Source: Acidobacteriota bacterium
Lineage (GTDB): Bacteria; Acidobacteriota; Terriglobia; UBA7540
Length of the DNA: 64,000 nucleotides
Direction: 5' to 3'
Assembly: GCA_902812415.1 (NCBI GenBank)
Contig: CADDZJ010000012.1
Span: 1-64,000, forward strand
Shown here: positions 36,721 through 51,353 of the stretch, one piece after another
Layout: each line of letters begins with the position of its first letter
Numbering within the stretch: the stretch's first letter is position 1
The notes under the pieces: model-generated
Databases searched by the model: none
Seen by the model: the letters and a program-made list of their open reading frames with translations, nothing else
What the model was told of the DNA's origin: nothing
Made by a program: the position numbers and the translations under genes

Positions 36721-37125
36721 TCAGTCGCGCAGCGGGATGAGGGCTTGCAACCGGCTCTCCCGCAAAAACAACCCGAGCCAAACGAGAACTCCAAAAATGA
36801 TCGGGAAGCTGGTATTAAACAGCGGGCTGCCCGTGCGCACGTTGGCGGCGGTTGCGCCGCCAAGATGGGCCGTCAGCAAGATCGCGCCCAGAACCGAGGT
36901 GCGCGGAATCACATAAAGCGCTGTCCAGACGAGCAGACTGGCCCCTATTCCGACGATCGTGGTCTCAGGGAACCCGATTCGAGCGAAGGCGTCGATGACC
37001 TGCCGAGCTTTCAGCACCTTTGTAACGCCATCGAAAGCCATGAATAACACAACAATCCCGCTTAGGGTGCGTCCAGCCCAAAGACTGCCCTTCGAAACAG
37101 AAGGGGACTCCATGATTGAGTGCAT
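36721..37125 (-). CDS. DoxX-like small membrane protein
   Basis: 134 residues from the second ATG (37125), eight bases after AGGAGG; the ATG at 37131 is only two bases from it. Four hydrophobic helices (LSGIVVLFMAFDGVTKVL, TTIVGIGASLLVWTALYVI, SVLGAILLTAHLGGATAANV, FPIIFGVLVWLGLFL) and the pattern match DoxX/DoxX-like proteins. Their role in membrane redox balance is loosely defined. It closes the ArsR-SRPBCC-hydrolase-DoxX operon, a common cluster in soil bacteria. Confidence 0.78.
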   Translation of the reverse strand: MHSIMESPSVSKGSLWAGRTLSGIVVLFMAFDGVTKVLKARQVIDAFARIGFPETTIVGIGASLLVWTALYVIPRTSVLGAILLTAHLGGATAANVRTGSPLFNTSFPIIFGVLVWLGLFLRESRLQALIPLRD

Positions 37126-37194
37126 GAACATTGCCTCCTGGTTTCAGAGTGTTGACTCAGATGACGCGCGAACTATTCGAACTGCGGGGCCGGT

Positions 37195-37592
37195 TCAATC
37201 TTCAAAGAACACCGCCAGAACCGGCGCGAGGACTGATGCCTTGGCCAGGTGCGTTTGGCCTGCCCACGTCACCTGCCGCGCAGCGGAAAGGACGTCCGCC
37301 AGTTCTTTCATCGCCTTTTGCCACCACGCAGGACTTTTGCCGCCTCTCGGATAAGCGCCTCAATGTCTTCGATCTCACGGTCGACCGAATACGCCGCGGT
37401 ATCGGGGCTCTCGCCTCGGCCGCGGCGGTCAAAAGCGAAGACAGTGAAATGCGGGGCTAAAAGCCTAGCAATGGACCGCATCGGCCCGAACCCTCGATAA
37501 CAAAGCGCGCCGTCCACCAACACCAAAGCTTGCCCTTTGCCTGAACGATCAAACGCGATGGTTGTGCCGTCCTTTGATTGCACGGTTTCCAT
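37195..37592 (-). pseudogene. Alpha/beta hydrolase with large internal deletion
   Basis: The N-terminus (METVQSKDGTTIAFDRSGKGQALVLVDGALCYRGFGPM and FAFDRRGRGESPDT) is an ordinary alpha/beta hydrolase up to about residue 85. The reading then stops (KVLRGGKRR), while one frame over WWQKAMKELADVLSAARQVT, AGQTHLAKASVLAPVLAVFF gives the family's C-terminus with the catalytic His region. About 130-150 residues between, including the Ser nucleophile elbow and the acid, are missing and the frame is shifted. It cannot be catalytic. Confidence 0.8.
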
Positions 37593-37619
37593 AGCCGACT
37601 CCTGTCGATTCCCGAGGCC

Positions 37620-38072
37620 TTAAAGTCTGGCTAGGAACTCCATCAGCCGGTCGAGTTGCTGGTTCCAGCCCATTGAGGCGCCCCGAGTCGCATCCGACTC
37701 AAATGAATACATCTGACGCACGGTGACTTCGGTTTTATCTTCTTTCTCGGCGAACGTCACTTCAGTCCACACTCGCTGGTCCGGCGAACCGTGGATGGCG
37801 CCGTCGAAGACCAACCGCTCTGGCTCGCTGACCTCGACGTACACTCCATCGAACGGGTATTTGCTTCCATCCGGCGCTCGCATTGTGTAGCGCCAAGCGC
37901 CACCGGGTCTTACATCCATCTCGCGAATCGTCGTCGTGACTCCGCGCGGCCCCCACCACTCCGCCAATTGTTTGGGATCGATCCATGCCTTGAAGACCAG
38001 CTTGCGCGGCGCATCAGAAGTGCGGGTGAGGACCAAATTCGCCTTTGGCGGAAAGGGGGCGCCGGTCTTCAT
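37620..38072 (-). CDS. SRPBCC-domain protein (AHSA1/Aha1-like)
   Basis: 150 residues in the START-like fold. RTSDAPRKLVFKAWIDPKQLAEWWGPRGVTT opens the family, WRYTMRAPDGSKYPFDGVYVEVSEPERLVF follows, and RGASMGWNQQLDRLMEFL closes it. These proteins bind hydrophobic ligands; the ArsR-SRPBCC pair is widespread and its ligand is unknown. The start is 10 bases behind the arsR stop. Confidence 0.9.
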   Translation of the reverse strand: MKTGAPFPPKANLVLTRTSDAPRKLVFKAWIDPKQLAEWWGPRGVTTTIREMDVRPGGAWRYTMRAPDGSKYPFDGVYVEVSEPERLVFDGAIHGSPDQRVWTEVTFAEKEDKTEVTVRQMYSFESDATRGASMGWNQQLDRLMEFLARL

Positions 38073-38082
38073 GTCCCTCCGT

Positions 38083-38433
38083 CTATTGCCTGGCGGTATG
38101 TTCCCTCTCCTTCTTTTTCAGTTTGTGCAGATACTCGTCCAGACGATCGAAGCTCTCCTTCCAGAACCTTCGGTAGCGCTCAACCCAATCAGCGACCTCT
38201 TTGAGGGGACGGGCGTTAAGCTGACAGGGTCGCCACTGAGCCTCGCGGCTGCGCGCGATCAGACCCGCCCGCTCGAGCACCTTCAAGTGCTTGGAGACGG
38301 CGGGAAGGCTCATTTTGAAGGGTTCGGCAATCTCGGTGACAGAAGCTTCGCCCGAGGCCAGTCGAGCCAGAATGGCGCGCCGAGTGGGATCTGCGAGGGC
38401 TGCGAAAGTCATGCTGAGTCGATCGGCGCTCAT
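38083..38433 (-). CDS. ArsR/SmtB-family transcriptional regulator
   Basis: 116 residues from ATG 38433. Winged helix LADPTRRAILARLASGEASVTEIAEPFKMSLPAVSKHLKVLERAGLI is typical ArsR. No metal-binding ELCVCD-type Cys motif is present, so it belongs to the non-metal SRPBCC-linked group. The upstream part of the frame (to 38691) has no homology. A perfect 24-base palindrome lies one base ahead of the start. It is the first gene of a four-gene operon (SRPBCC, hydrolase remnant, DoxX). Confidence 0.9.
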   Translation of the reverse strand: MSADRLSMTFAALADPTRRAILARLASGEASVTEIAEPFKMSLPAVSKHLKVLERAGLIARSREAQWRPCQLNARPLKEVADWVERYRRFWKESFDRLDEYLHKLKKKEREHTARQ

Positions 38434-38434
38434 C

Positions 38435-38458
38435 GTATTTAACCTATAGGTTAAATAC
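38435..38458. promoter_or_regulatory. Perfect 24-bp operator for the ArsR-family regulator
   Basis: GTATTTAACCTA followed directly by its exact reverse complement, ending two bases from the arsR start codon. A perfect palindrome at this position indicates autorepression by the dimeric regulator. The AGG within it is the only Shine-Dalgarno-like element. Confidence 0.75.
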
Positions 38459-38904
38459 ACCTCAGAACGCTCTCTGTCAAGCGCTTTTTTCTGTTTTCTT
38501 CCTGCCATTCCCGGGTGGACCCGCCGTTTCAGAACCATTTGCAGGTTTGGAACTGTTGCATCCAGGCGGGCAAGGAAAAAACCAACACGGGTGTGGCCGC
38601 TTCTCTGCGCTTGCCGAAACCCACTGTGGGAAGCGGCGCGGTCGTGGAAAACCTGCGCGCAGAGCTCAAAGCGGGGTTCGAGGGCCTCCAAATGTCGCGC
38701 AGCGAATGGCGCGGCAGACTCCCCATTCGGTTCCGCAAGCCGCCCGAGAATTCGGCGGCGCGGTCAACGGGACGGTTCACGCGTGACTTGCCGAACGAAC
38801 GGACCGCGAAGAGCGCGGTCCATGTGTCAATGTATAGCGACCGCCAAAGCTTGAGCAGAGCGGTAGCTATTGAACGGTAGGAGGCAAAAATCGAAAGCGT
38901 TCGT
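38459..38904. other. Leader region between arsR and the peroxidase gene
   Basis: 446 bases between divergent genes. Open frames cross it on both strands, but none resembles a known protein. GGACCGCG (38801-38808) pairs with CGCGGTCC (38814-38821) around AAGAG. AGGAGG at 38879-38884 is 20 bases ahead of the peroxidase ATG, too far for normal initiation. Any promoter of the peroxidase-encapsulin pair should lie here. Confidence 0.4.
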
Positions 38905-39931
38905 ATGAGCATAGCCAGGGGAGAAGGCCTAACACCGGTTCCCCAGCCGGTTCTTGCGCCACTCACCACCGCAGCGATATTCCTGGTTGTTTGTGTTAAA
39001 CCGGATCGCGAGAGCTACGCAGCCGTGCGCTCGCTCTGCGCTGATCTGCCGGGAATTTTTCGCGCAGTCGATTTCCGTCGCATCGAGGGAGGACTCTCAT
39101 GCGTCGCGGGATTTGGATCGGATGCCTGGGACAAACTCTTCGGAAAGCCTCGGCCGGCTGAACTCCATCCGTTTCGTGAGATACGATCGGGGGAACGCCA
39201 TGCCGTCTCCACTCCTGCCGATGTATTGTTTCACATCCGCGCCAAACGAATGGATATGTGTTTCGAGTTGGTCGCCCAAATCATGGAGCGGATTCAAGGG
39301 GCGGTCTCTGCTGTTGACGAGACACACGGCTTCCGTTATTTCGATGATCGCGACCTGATCGGATTCGTTGACGGGACAGAAAATCCGCGTGGTGAGGCCG
39401 CGCTCGTCGCTGAAGAAGACTCCCAGTTTGCCGGCGGAAGCTACGTCATCGTTCAGAAATATCTGCACGACATGCGCGGGTGGAACGCCCTTTCAACCGA
39501 GGAGCAAGAGCGGATCATAGGGCGCAAAAAACTTTCCGACATTGAGCTGAGCGATGCGGTGAAACCGTCTTCAGCCCACAACGCTCTGACGACCCTTGTG
39601 GAGAATGGAAAAGAGGTCAAGATCCTGAGGGACAACATGCCCTTTGGCAAGGCCGGTCATGGCGAATTCGGAACCTACTTTATAGGATATAGTCGATCTC
39701 CCCGGACGATTGAACAGATGCTTGAGAACATGTTTATCGGGCGACCGCCGGGCTGTCACAGGAAGCCTATTTTTCGCGCCATCGGCGACTTTTCTTGAAA
39801 ATCTCGGTGACGAAGAACCTTCAGCAACTTCAGCCAGCCCACTGCCGCCAGAACCGGATCGGTCATCATCTTCGCCAGCGCGCGACACATCACTCGGAAT
39901 AGGATCTCTCAAAGGAGTCAGGAATGAATAA
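38905..39931 (+). pseudogene. B-type dye-decolorizing peroxidase, encapsulin cargo, with C-terminal deletion/frameshift
   Basis: Residues 1-283 are a normal DyP: GFVDGTENP holds the distal Asp, SSAHNALT the proximal heme His, ILRDNMPFG the distal Arg/Asn, and GTYFIGYSRSP the closing strand. After ..MFIGRPPG (39753) homologues have about ten residues (pattern NxDRxLDFST) before AVTG. Here these are absent and the frame changes, so the literal frame ends wrongly at 39798. The other frame continues AVTGSLFFAPSATFLENLGDEE, a Ser/Pro linker, and DTSLGIGSLKG, the encapsulin cargo-loading peptide, stopping at 39931. That stop overlaps the encapsulin ATG by eight bases. A deletion of about 29 bases explains it. 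Confidence 0.85.
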
Positions 39932-40748
39932 CCTTCACCGCGAGTTAGCGCCAATCTCGGACGCGGCATGGGCGCAGATTGAGGAGGAAACGACGCGCAC
40001 ACTCAAGCGATACCTCGCTGGTAGACGCGTTGTTGATGTTCGCTCTCCCGGCGGAATTGCGCTTCCCGGAGTTGCGACGGGCCATTTGGTGCCCATCACC
40101 CCACCGGCCAAGGGCATCATCGCAAATCAACGCGAAGTCAAAGCTCTTGTGGAGTTGACGGTGGCTTTTGAACTGTCGCGGCAAGCGATTGACGATGTAG
40201 AGCGGGGATCGGAAGATTCTGACTGACAACCTGCCAAGGACGCCGCTAAGACACTCGCATTCGCCGAGGACCGCACGATCTTCGATGGTTATCGGGGGGC
40301 GAATATTCAGGGTATTCGTGAAGCCACCAGTAATCCAAGCCATTCTTTGCCCGATGACGTCCGCGATTATCCGGACGCCGTCGCCCAGGCGTTAACCCAG
40401 TTGCGTCTTGTCGGCGTCAATGGTCCGTACTCGGTCGTGTTGGGAGCCAACGAATATACAAAGCTCGCGGAAACTCGCGATCATGGTTACCCGGTGTTGG
40501 ACCACGTCAAGCGCATCGTTGACGGCGATCCTATCTGGGCTCCCGCGATTGACGGCGCCTTCGTACTGACCACCCGTGGCGGCGATTTCGAACTCGCCAT
40601 CGGGCAGGATGCCTCCATCGGGTATCTCGGCCATACGGACACAATCGTTCGTCTTTATCTGCAGGAAACGTTCACGTTTCGGGTTTTGATGAGCGAGGCA
40701 TCCGTGGCTTTTTCGCCATCGTCAAAGCGTGTCACGCAAAACAAGTGA
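39924..40748 (+). pseudogene. Family-1 encapsulin shell protein with in-frame TGA
   Basis: A 274-codon frame encoding the HK97-fold shell that self-assembles around a peroxidase. MNNLHRELAPISDAAWAQIE, AGRRVVDV, LSRQAIDDVERGSEDSD, then TGA at 40224-40226, then QPAKDAAKTLAFAEDRTIFDGY, DHGYPVLDHVKRIVDGD, WAPAIDGAFVLTTRGGDFEL and YLQETFTFRVL without another stop. Homologues have Trp at the TGA codon (DSDW), so a single TGG to TGA change splits it into 100 and 173 residues. AAGGAG precedes the ATG by eight bases. Other genes here use TGA as stop, so recoding is unlikely. The start overlaps the cargo gene's stop. Confidence 0.88.
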
Positions 40749-46038: not shown

Positions 46039-46172
46039 ACTTTTTTGATTCGAGCTCGCATTCCCAATCTTTGTGGGTCATCCTTACTTTTATTAACGTA
46101 TTGCAAATAAATGGCTTAGCAAAGACCTATCGCTCCTATATTCTAAGGAGCAAGGTGGGCTGAGAGAGGGAA

Positions 46173-47561
46173 TTGTGCTTCTCGAAGGAGCCTGAACCCT
46201 CAACCTCAGCCGAGGACTTAGCCCCCGGTCGAATCCCCATGAATGCCTGGCAAGAGATCCTCAGCTATCTGAAAACCAAGGTTAACACACAAAGCTATCA
46301 GACATGGCTGCGGCCCACACGGTTCAGTCATGTTTCAAAAGATAGTATCGTAGTTCGCGTACCTAACCGGGAATTCCAGGACTGGATTCAGGAAAAATAT
46401 GGATCGCTAATCCATGATGCCATAGAGGAACTTAAGCTCGAATATCGAGAAGTGGCATATACTTTCGAGGGTGGGGGGGAGAAGAAACCCGCCGCTGACA
46501 ATGAGCCAAAAGTAATACAAGGTAAGTTGGATTTTGATTCCACAGCTCATCAACTCGACGCTCGCTATACATTTGATACTTTTGTGGTAGGCTCCTGCAA
46601 TCAATTTGCTCACGCGGCCGCGCGCGCGGTAGCTCAAGCACCCTCAGAAATGTACAATCCACTCTTTCTCTACGGCGGCGTCGGATTGGGCAAGACACAT
46701 CTCATGCAAGCCGTCGGACATTCGATCAAGAGTCGATGGAAGGAAATGCGATTGGCGTATGTGTCCTCTGAGACGTTCACCAACGAGGTCATTAATTCCC
46801 TGCGCTACGACCGCATGATTTCATTCCGCGAAAAGTATCGTAATGTGGATGTGCTCCTGATGGACGATATCGAGTTTATTGCAGGTAAGGAGCGCACTCA
46901 GGAGGAATTCTTTCACACCTTCAATGCCTTACACCAGGCGCGCAAACAGGTTGTGATTTCCAGCGATTGTCCCCCCAAAGAAATTCCTGCTTTGGAGGAG
47001 AGATTGCGGTCCCGCTTTGCCTGGGGGCTCACGGCTGATCTTCAGCCGCCCGACTTGGAGACGAAAATGGCTATCCTAGCTAAGAAAGCCGAGGCCCTCA
47101 AAGTAAACCTGCCTCCGGACGTGGCCGAATTCATCGCCTCCAAGATCAGGTCGAGCATCCGGGATCTGGAGGGTGCCCTGACGCGCCTGCTGGCGTACTC
47201 TTCGCTGACCGGAGACGAACTCTCTCTTGCGACAGCCGAACACGTTCTGAAGAATATCGTCGATCTGGATGAGCATCGGGTCTCCATCGAAAACATTCAA
47301 AGACTTGTCTGCAAGGAATTTGGTCTGAGCCTTGCCCAACTGAAGTCAAAGAACAACAGTAAGAAGATCGCCTATCCTCGCCAGATCGCCATGTATCTTG
47401 CCAAACAATTGACGCCCACTTCTCTTCCTCAAATCGGAAGAGAGTTTGGTGGAAAACATCACACAACAGTTCTACACTCGATTAACAAGATTGAGGATTT
47501 GCGCAAGACTGATCGAGAATTGCACAGACTTATCAACAAGTTGAGTGATGGTTTGAGTTAG
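46173..47561 (+). CDS. dnaA: Chromosomal replication initiator DnaA
   Basis: Binds origin boxes and loads the helicase. Domain I WQEILSYLKTKVNTQSYQTWLRPTRF, AAA+ Walker A FLYGGVGLGKTHLM, Walker B LLMDDIEFIAGKE, sensor II RSSIRDLEGALTRL and domain IV SLPQIGREFGGKHHTTVLHSINKI are complete. The TTG start at 46173 has AGAGAGGG just upstream; the conserved N-terminus begins at an internal ATG, 46239, which lacks a ribosome site, so either start may be used. 462 or 440 residues. Confidence 0.95.
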   Translation: MCFSKEPEPSTSAEDLAPGRIPMNAWQEILSYLKTKVNTQSYQTWLRPTRFSHVSKDSIVVRVPNREFQDWIQEKYGSLIHDAIEELKLEYREVAYTFEGGGEKKPAADNEPKVIQGKLDFDSTAHQLDARYTFDTFVVGSCNQFAHAAARAVAQAPSEMYNPLFLYGGVGLGKTHLMQAVGHSIKSRWKEMRLAYVSSETFTNEVINSLRYDRMISFREKYRNVDVLLMDDIEFIAGKERTQEEFFHTFNALHQARKQVVISSDCPPKEIPALEERLRSRFAWGLTADLQPPDLETKMAILAKKAEALKVNLPPDVAEFIASKIRSSIRDLEGALTRLLAYSSLTGDELSLATAEHVLKNIVDLDEHRVSIENIQRLVCKEFGLSLAQLKSKNNSKKIAYPRQIAMYLAKQLTPTSLPQIGREFGGKHHTTVLHSINKIEDLRKTDRELHRLINKLSDGLS

Positions 47562-47758
47562 ACTTAGCCTGTTTTGTGCGAAATTGACCTTTGGAAAAAT
47601 TTGTGAGTTATCCGCGAAGGGAAGTTTTACACAAGGATTCACAGATCTTGTCGGATTGTCCACAGCAGTTAATCGGCGCAACTCCTGTCCACTCAAAAAG
47701 GTTCTATGTTTTCCACAAGTCCACAAGCCCTTCTACTACGATACTTATACAGGTGTAG
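47562..47758. other. Candidate chromosomal origin (oriC) between dnaA and dnaN
   Basis: 197 bases with DnaA-box-like nonamers. TTTTACACA (47625-47633) and TTTTCCACA (47709-47717) fit TTWTNCACA. TTGTCCACA (47656-47664) is one off, as is the weaker TTATCCGCG (47608-47616), and AAGTCCACA follows at 47717. An AT-rich stretch (47581-47610) could unwind. Location next to dnaA supports an origin, but no duplex-unwinding test or skew calculation was possible here. Confidence 0.55.
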
Positions 47759-48880
47759 ATGAATATGGAATTTACCGCCCGAAAGTCTGAGCTTCTAAAA
47801 GAACTGGATCTGGCCCAGGGAGTAGCTGAGAAAAAGACCACCATTCCGATCTTGTCTAACATTCTTCTGGAGGCCACGGATTCTGAGTTGCGGTTGAGTG
47901 CAACCGATCTGGAGTTGGCCTTGCGATGCGGTTGCCCTGCGCGCGTGAAAAAGACGGGCGCATCGACCGTCCCGGGCAAGAGGCTTCTGGAAGTGGTCCG
48001 GTCTCTGCCCGATGCGGAAATTAAATTTAAGGTGCTGGAAAATCACTTCATTCAGGTGACCTGTGAACGCTCGTCGTTCAAGCTGGCAGGAATGGCGAAG
48101 GATAATTTCCCTGCTCTTCCTGAAGCTCCCCGCGAGTTGGCGATTATTCCAGCGGGAGTTTTGACCTTGATGATTCAGAGGACAGGTTTCGCCATTTCGA
48201 GTGAAGAGTCTCGTTATACCCTGAACGGCGCGCTGCTGCTTTTGAAGCCTGATCGGATCCTTATGGTGGCGACCGATGGTCACCGGCTCGCGCAAGTGGA
48301 GCGTGAAGTTCAGGTGGAAGGTCTGGATAACGAGTTGCGCGTCTTGATTCCCAAGAGAGCCATGGGAGAGCTTTATCGACTTTTATCTCAGGGAGGGGAT
48401 CAGTCGCCTATTCGTTTCTCAAAGGACGAAAGCCATCTTTTCTTCTCTGTCGGTCATCGCATCCTTATTTCGCGGGTGTTGACGGGGCAGTTTCCGAATT
48501 ATGAAGCGGTGATTCCTCGTGAGAATCATCGTGTGATGGAGGCTAAAAAAGAACAGATTGCGGAAGCGATCCGCCGGGTTGCGCTTCTGGCTGATGAGCG
48601 CTCGCGGGCTATTCGGCTTCAGTTGGCCAAAGGACGATTGGAGATCTTCTCGTCCAGTGGAGAGTACGGCGAAGCGCACGAAGTTTTGGACGTGAGCTAT
48701 GACAGTGAGGATATGCAAATCGGGTTCAATTATCAGTATCTGCTGGATTTCCTGGGAGTAGTTGGAGAGAGCGAAAATGTTCGAATGGAATTAAAGGATG
48801 AGCAAAGCGCTGGCCAGCTTCGTCCGGCAGAGGATGATGCGTGTCGCTATCGCTACGTAGTGATGCCCATGCGCGTTTAG
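47759..48880 (+). CDS. dnaN: DNA polymerase III beta sliding clamp
   Basis: 373 residues, a ring dimer that tethers polymerase III. MEFTARKSELLKELDLAQGVAEKKTTIPILSNILLEA, GVLTLMIQRTGFAISSEESRYTLNG, VATDGHRLA and the terminal YRYVVMPMRV (ending in the conserved MPMR) identify it. ATG 47759 or 47765 (MEFTA, the more usual opening) could be used. Follows the candidate oriC and precedes gyrB. Confidence 0.96.
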   Translation: MNMEFTARKSELLKELDLAQGVAEKKTTIPILSNILLEATDSELRLSATDLELALRCGCPARVKKTGASTVPGKRLLEVVRSLPDAEIKFKVLENHFIQVTCERSSFKLAGMAKDNFPALPEAPRELAIIPAGVLTLMIQRTGFAISSEESRYTLNGALLLLKPDRILMVATDGHRLAQVEREVQVEGLDNELRVLIPKRAMGELYRLLSQGGDQSPIRFSKDESHLFFSVGHRILISRVLTGQFPNYEAVIPRENHRVMEAKKEQIAEAIRRVALLADERSRAIRLQLAKGRLEIFSSSGEYGEAHEVLDVSYDSEDMQIGFNYQYLLDFLGVVGESENVRMELKDEQSAGQLRPAEDDACRYRYVVMPMRV

Positions 48881-48917
48881 CAGGTAGATTGTCAGAATGG
48901 ACCATTATTGAAGGTAG

Positions 48918-51353
<2,436 letters not shown>

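Follow-up and report, generated by a model that had tools for sequence, protein, structure and literature searches.

A Damaged Peroxidase-Encapsulin Operon

The window, by which we mean the whole 64-kb stretch of Terriglobia (Acidobacteriota) DNA analyzed here, encodes a dye-decolorizing peroxidase (DyP) directly upstream of a family-1 encapsulin, and the cargo and shell genes overlap by 8 bases (39924-39931). In family-1 systems, a peptide at the C-terminus of DyP docks inside the assembling encapsulin shell to give a peroxidase nanocompartment. A preliminary description of the locus, made from the sequence alone, had named this gene pair with its overlap and the cargo-loading peptide DTSLGIGSLKG at the end of the DyP, and had considered both genes to be damaged, each in a different way. 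The coordinates, the profile matches (Pfam, NCBIfam) and the lesions described below bear this out. Both deletions in the DyP gene and the stop codon in the encapsulin gene were located by base-by-base alignment to the nearest intact locus (L029; JASHON010000176, Terriglobia bacterium JOPF024), which belongs to the same family but another genus.

The DyP frame (+ strand) opens with the ATG at 38905 and ends at 39798 after 297 codons. The match to Pfam Dyp_perox_N is complete (5e-31) and that to Dyp_perox_C covers positions 1-139 of 166 (9e-48), both far beyond chance, and the protein is ~87% identical to the L029 DyP. Its last 14 residues, however, are an out-of-frame tail without homology. 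The cause is a 32-bp deletion at 39747-39753, where a single GCCGGGC remains; two copies flank the missing segment in L029, and this is the pattern that slipped-strand deletion leaves. Downstream of the junction, the last conserved DyP segment and the cargo-loading peptide SLGIGSLKG are thrown out of frame. The remainder, including the linker and SLGIGSLKG near its end, is found at 39754-39931 (+) in another frame than the 38905 open reading frame (ORF), matches the L029 C-terminus at 83% identity over 60 aa, and ends in DTSLGIGSLKGVRNE. The cargo thus encodes its targeting peptide but does not carry it in frame. Motifs of the SL.IGSL[KR] type occur in 62 of 69 relatives, the other seven having close variants. 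Programmed frameshifting is ruled out since the deletion takes away coding sequence and not the frame alone. We also found a lesion that the preliminary description did not include, a 12-bp in-frame deletion at 39394-39405 (+), where alignment to L029 reveals a tandem near-repeat contracted by one unit. The four residues absent here are present in other relatives besides L029. The segments GFVDGTENP, SSAHNA, and ILRDN, which we take to carry the heme pocket, are retained in the truncated DyP.

The encapsulin gene starts with the ATG at 39924 and is interrupted at codon 101 by a TGA (40224-40226). The 5′ part (39924-40226, +) encodes 100 aa matching NCBIfam encap_f1 over 1-97 of 261 positions and Pfam Linocin_M18 over 1-100 of 253. 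Behind the stop, homology picks up again in the same frame (40227-40748, +; encap_f1 140-261/261, Linocin_M18 143-253/253). Read through the TGA, the gene matches Linocin_M18 with an E-value of 5.7e-91 and is ~81% identical to the L029 encapsulin at the protein level. Homology to the HK97-fold shell family is therefore complete, but the open frame ends at residue 100. Comparison with relatives, which the preliminary description had proposed, showed that codon 101 is TGG in 79 of 80 of them and CGG in one, and that L029 is intact at both the 32-bp deletion and the stop. We rejected an altered genetic code because TGA terminates 24 of the 54 long ORFs in the window and is their commonest stop. 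No tRNA genes were found in the 64 kb. The base that follows the premature TGA is a C (40224-40229). UGA-C is a leaky stop context, and full-length shell protein could conceivably arise in trace amounts.

Remains of a Formate Dehydrogenase Gene

In L029, the DyP gene is immediately preceded by a formate dehydrogenase (FDH) gene, and the three-gene order FDH-DyP-encapsulin is intact. The window has no intact FDH upstream of DyP; two overlapping scraps of its C-terminal coding sequence, together spanning ~38695-38777, take its place, a feature absent from the preliminary description. The forward scrap (38739-38777, +; AAREFGGAVNGTV) is a 39-bp stretch with 85% identity to the L029 FDH, lying in the same place and orientation as that gene. 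Its match has a local E-value of 6e-8 and a score of 48, against 32 for the best shuffle, and a search of 61 genomes recovered it a second time. The inverted scrap (38695-38748, -; RLAEPNGESAAPFAAR), identified by blastn and tblastn against the L029 FDH, corresponds to the adjacent FDH segment and matches it over 54 bp at 78% identity (blastn against all collected loci, E=1.5e-5); 45 bp are 80% identical to the FDH of another locus, L028. The evidence for the relic comes from two relatives, L029 and L028, and from matches of 39 and 54 bp. From these alignments, the window appears to hold the remains of a three-gene FDH-DyP-encapsulin set in which FDH, the most eroded gene of the set, was almost erased by a deletion and a small inversion. 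The L028 gene (295-2655, -) is a second acidobacterial FDH of this type, 86% identical to that of L029 and located near a DyP-encapsulin pair in the opposite orientation.

No second encapsulin, no second encapsulin-type DyP, and no close copy of FDH were found in the host genome (a 4.84 Mb draft in 261 contigs, 96% complete), where the only FDH homologue is a distant one with 29% identity. The other Pfam-matching ORFs of the window, including dnaA, dnaN, gyrB, dapA, dapB, and a ClpB-type ATPase gene, are full-length, so the damage is local. There are two exceptions, the methylase ORF that lies at the contig edge and, at 37308-37592, a hydrolase stub. The stub (- strand, 94 aa, Abhydrolase_6 13-62/217) is possibly another decayed alpha/beta hydrolase gene beside the island. 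The dnaA-dnaN-gyrB cluster (46164-51350) marks a probable origin region ~5 kb from the decayed operon. A perfect 24-bp palindrome, GTATTTAACCTATAGGTTAAATAC (38435-38458), lies upstream of a cassette encoding an ArsR-type regulator, AHSA1, and DoxX (- strand, 36721-38600) and is predicted to be an operator.

Relation to Known Encapsulin Systems

Family-1 DyP encapsulin operons are a described type (Andreas and Giessen, 2021; PMC8346489). The window shares with them the position of the DyP cargo gene immediately before a shell gene of HK97 type, the C-terminal SLGIGSLKG, and matches to encap_f1 and Linocin_M18. It departs from them in that the shell is stopped at codon 101 and the DyP is frameshifted ahead of the peptide. 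An FDH gene also stands before the DyP-encapsulin pair in enterobacteria such as Klebsiella, where the operons are carried on mobile elements (PMC10960027; for Escherichia coli and Salmonella, PMC12140327). The acidobacterial loci resemble these transposon-associated operons in their patchy distribution and, in L029, in the FDH immediately upstream of DyP, a likeness in gene order. Unlike the Enterobacteriaceae operons, the window retains only a relic of FDH, belongs to an acidobacterial host, and has no recognized RpoH-like gene downstream.

Probable Origin and Inactivation of the Operon

The encapsulin of the window groups with that of L029 (support 0.97) and weakly with Acidobacteriaceae sequences, and is separate from the remaining encapsulins of its family. 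Searches of three congeners detected neither DyP nor encapsulin (G001 is 77% and G003 89% complete), and in the third, G002, the site beside rluB is occupied by other genes. One encapsulin match in G001 was spurious, being below the family cut-off and on the opposite strand to a 115-aa HPT-domain-like ORF. The grouping and the absence from three congeners are as expected of an accessory island, and they fit an operon that was gained laterally and then lost. The genomic surroundings of the operon differ between the window and L029.

We consider it very probable that at this locus a copy of a horizontally mobile FDH-DyP-family-1-encapsulin operon has recently been inactivated. Selection for the system would have been lost before the lesions arose. 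FDH may have been cut to a scrap by a deletion with a small inversion; slipped-strand deletion between 7-bp repeats would have removed 32 bp from DyP, frameshifting the last conserved segment and the docking peptide; and a nonsense change in a Trp codon that is almost invariant stops the shell protein after 100 of ~274 residues, leaving products that presumably no longer function. Four distinct types of damage within ~2 kb, with the rest of the 64 kb sound apart from the exceptions above, argue for local decay.

The preliminary description had suggested that the system was recently discarded, and substitution patterns are compatible with this: conserved columns are changed at 3 of 117 positions in the encapsulin and 2 of 103 in the DyP, numbers that intact copies also reach. 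That conserved sites carry no excess of substitutions points either to a recent loss or to an artefact. Pairwise dN/dS (NG86; masking two codons around the stop leaves the conclusion unaffected) gave no clear sign of relaxed selection, with a value of 0.185 for the encapsulin against L029; the median of intact pairs is 0.09, and 22% of them reach 0.185.

An error of sequencing or assembly, the alternative given in the preliminary description, or a consensus of several strains concealing an intact operon in the organism, would also explain the preserved conserved sites, and a draft of 261 contigs gives room for such errors. The lesions in this short stretch are not, however, of one type of error: 32 bp are missing from exactly between two 7-bp repeats, a near-repeat has contracted by 12 bp, a sense codon has become a stop, and FDH is eroded. 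No comparable damage occurs elsewhere in the 64 kb save in the neighboring hydrolase stub. We regard an artefact or strain mixture as unlikely; the decay of the operon is in all likelihood real, and is a fairly ordinary case of gene decay in a known type of organelle.

The pieces might also still work, if near-cognate reading of the UGA as Trp yielded some shell and the truncated DyP served as a free peroxidase. Apart from one UGA, followed by C, the encapsulin frame is uninterrupted, the expected heme-pocket segments are kept, and relatives with shell-less DyPs exist. Those free DyPs, however, retain the whole C-terminal domain through PSATFLE, whereas the window DyP stops short (Dyp_perox_C 139/166); read-through can repair neither the DyP frameshift nor the displaced docking peptide, and TGA is an ordinary stop here. 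This makes continued function highly improbable. A different order of events would have the DyP being released from its shell, with the cargo kept and the shell lost first, and the enzyme broken only later. The DyP of another genome, G222, falls in the same clade as those of the window and L029 (support 0.996), lacks peptide and shell, and is otherwise whole, as a release would leave it. In the window, however, the larger lesion sits in the DyP, the peptide coding sequence is still there out of frame, and no evidence orders the DyP and shell lesions, so we give release before decay little chance.

Repeated Decay and Possible Cargo Release in Terriglobia

The preliminary description had called the loss of a whole nanocompartment in this way unusual, and this did not hold. 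Encapsulins occur in ~58 of 399 genomes of the class (63 matches, less those that are weak or phage-like), and at least four further encapsulin/DyP loci are decayed. In G119, the shell has a one-base frameshift behind an intact DyP; in G182, an internal deletion runs from DyP into the shell and is joined by a further frameshift; in G091 and G122, 98% identical to each other, approximately the last 100 codons alone are left; and G148 has a frameshifted DyP scrap and no shell. These resemble the window in having frameshifts and partial deletions in the same two genes, but the lesions are others and the genomes belong to other families. Since the lesions differ, the decays were separate events. 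The decayed encapsulin or DyP loci noted in the class are L127, L128, L129, L130, and L215, with a frameshift, 5′ deletion, internal deletion, or DyP scrap.

Seven genomes have an encapsulin-type DyP and no encapsulin match. None of these seven DyPs extends as far as a targeting peptide, and that of G293 is itself broken. In a FastTree phylogeny with an outgroup, the shell-less DyPs form three lineages nested in the encapsulated DyPs: a five-genome clade (support 0.99, within a clade of 0.96), G222 in the clade described above, and G008 with Rhizobium sequences (0.996). In the G222 DyP, homology stops at the linker and unrelated sequence follows. Several of the shell-less genomes are 73-85% complete; the DNA beside DyP is present in them and lacks a shell gene. 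As judged from this tree, cargo DyP appears to have been released at least three times independently inside the encapsulated clade.

We see about an even chance that in Terriglobia the nanocompartment was laterally gained and repeatedly dismantled by two routes: total decay of the operon (the window, G119, G182, G091/G122, and probably G148) or release of the cargo, with the enzyme domain kept and the peptide and shell lost (G222, G008, and the five-genome clade). On this view, packing would be a conditional addition, easily discarded, to a peroxidase able to serve unpackaged. Searches of literature outside subscription journals returned nothing on point for encapsulin pseudogenes or acidobacterial encapsulins. 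Within that literature we found no paper describing a shell lost repeatedly, whether the peroxidase was lost as well or kept, though one may exist elsewhere.

The reason for enclosing DyP in a shell is a matter of debate. Close relatives that have one cargo in packed, unpacked, and dead form allow the advantage of packing to be tested by comparing them, as with L029, whose DyP is packed, and G222, whose DyP is free; both DyPs share a clade with that of the window. The broken copy in the window says no more than that this lineage has stopped using the system; the repeated loss of the shell, with and without the peroxidase, is a by-product of the analysis more interesting than the decay itself.

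Some matches were set aside. The broken DyP of locus L074 adjoins an N gap and was not counted; the broken or truncated DyPs of L047, L059, and L066 are from draft peat genomes and were not relied on; and weak DyP matches in G309 and G170, with no or distant similarity to the DyP type of the window, were dropped. The shell-less DyP loci are L173 (G008), L218 (G222), L219-L222, and L202.
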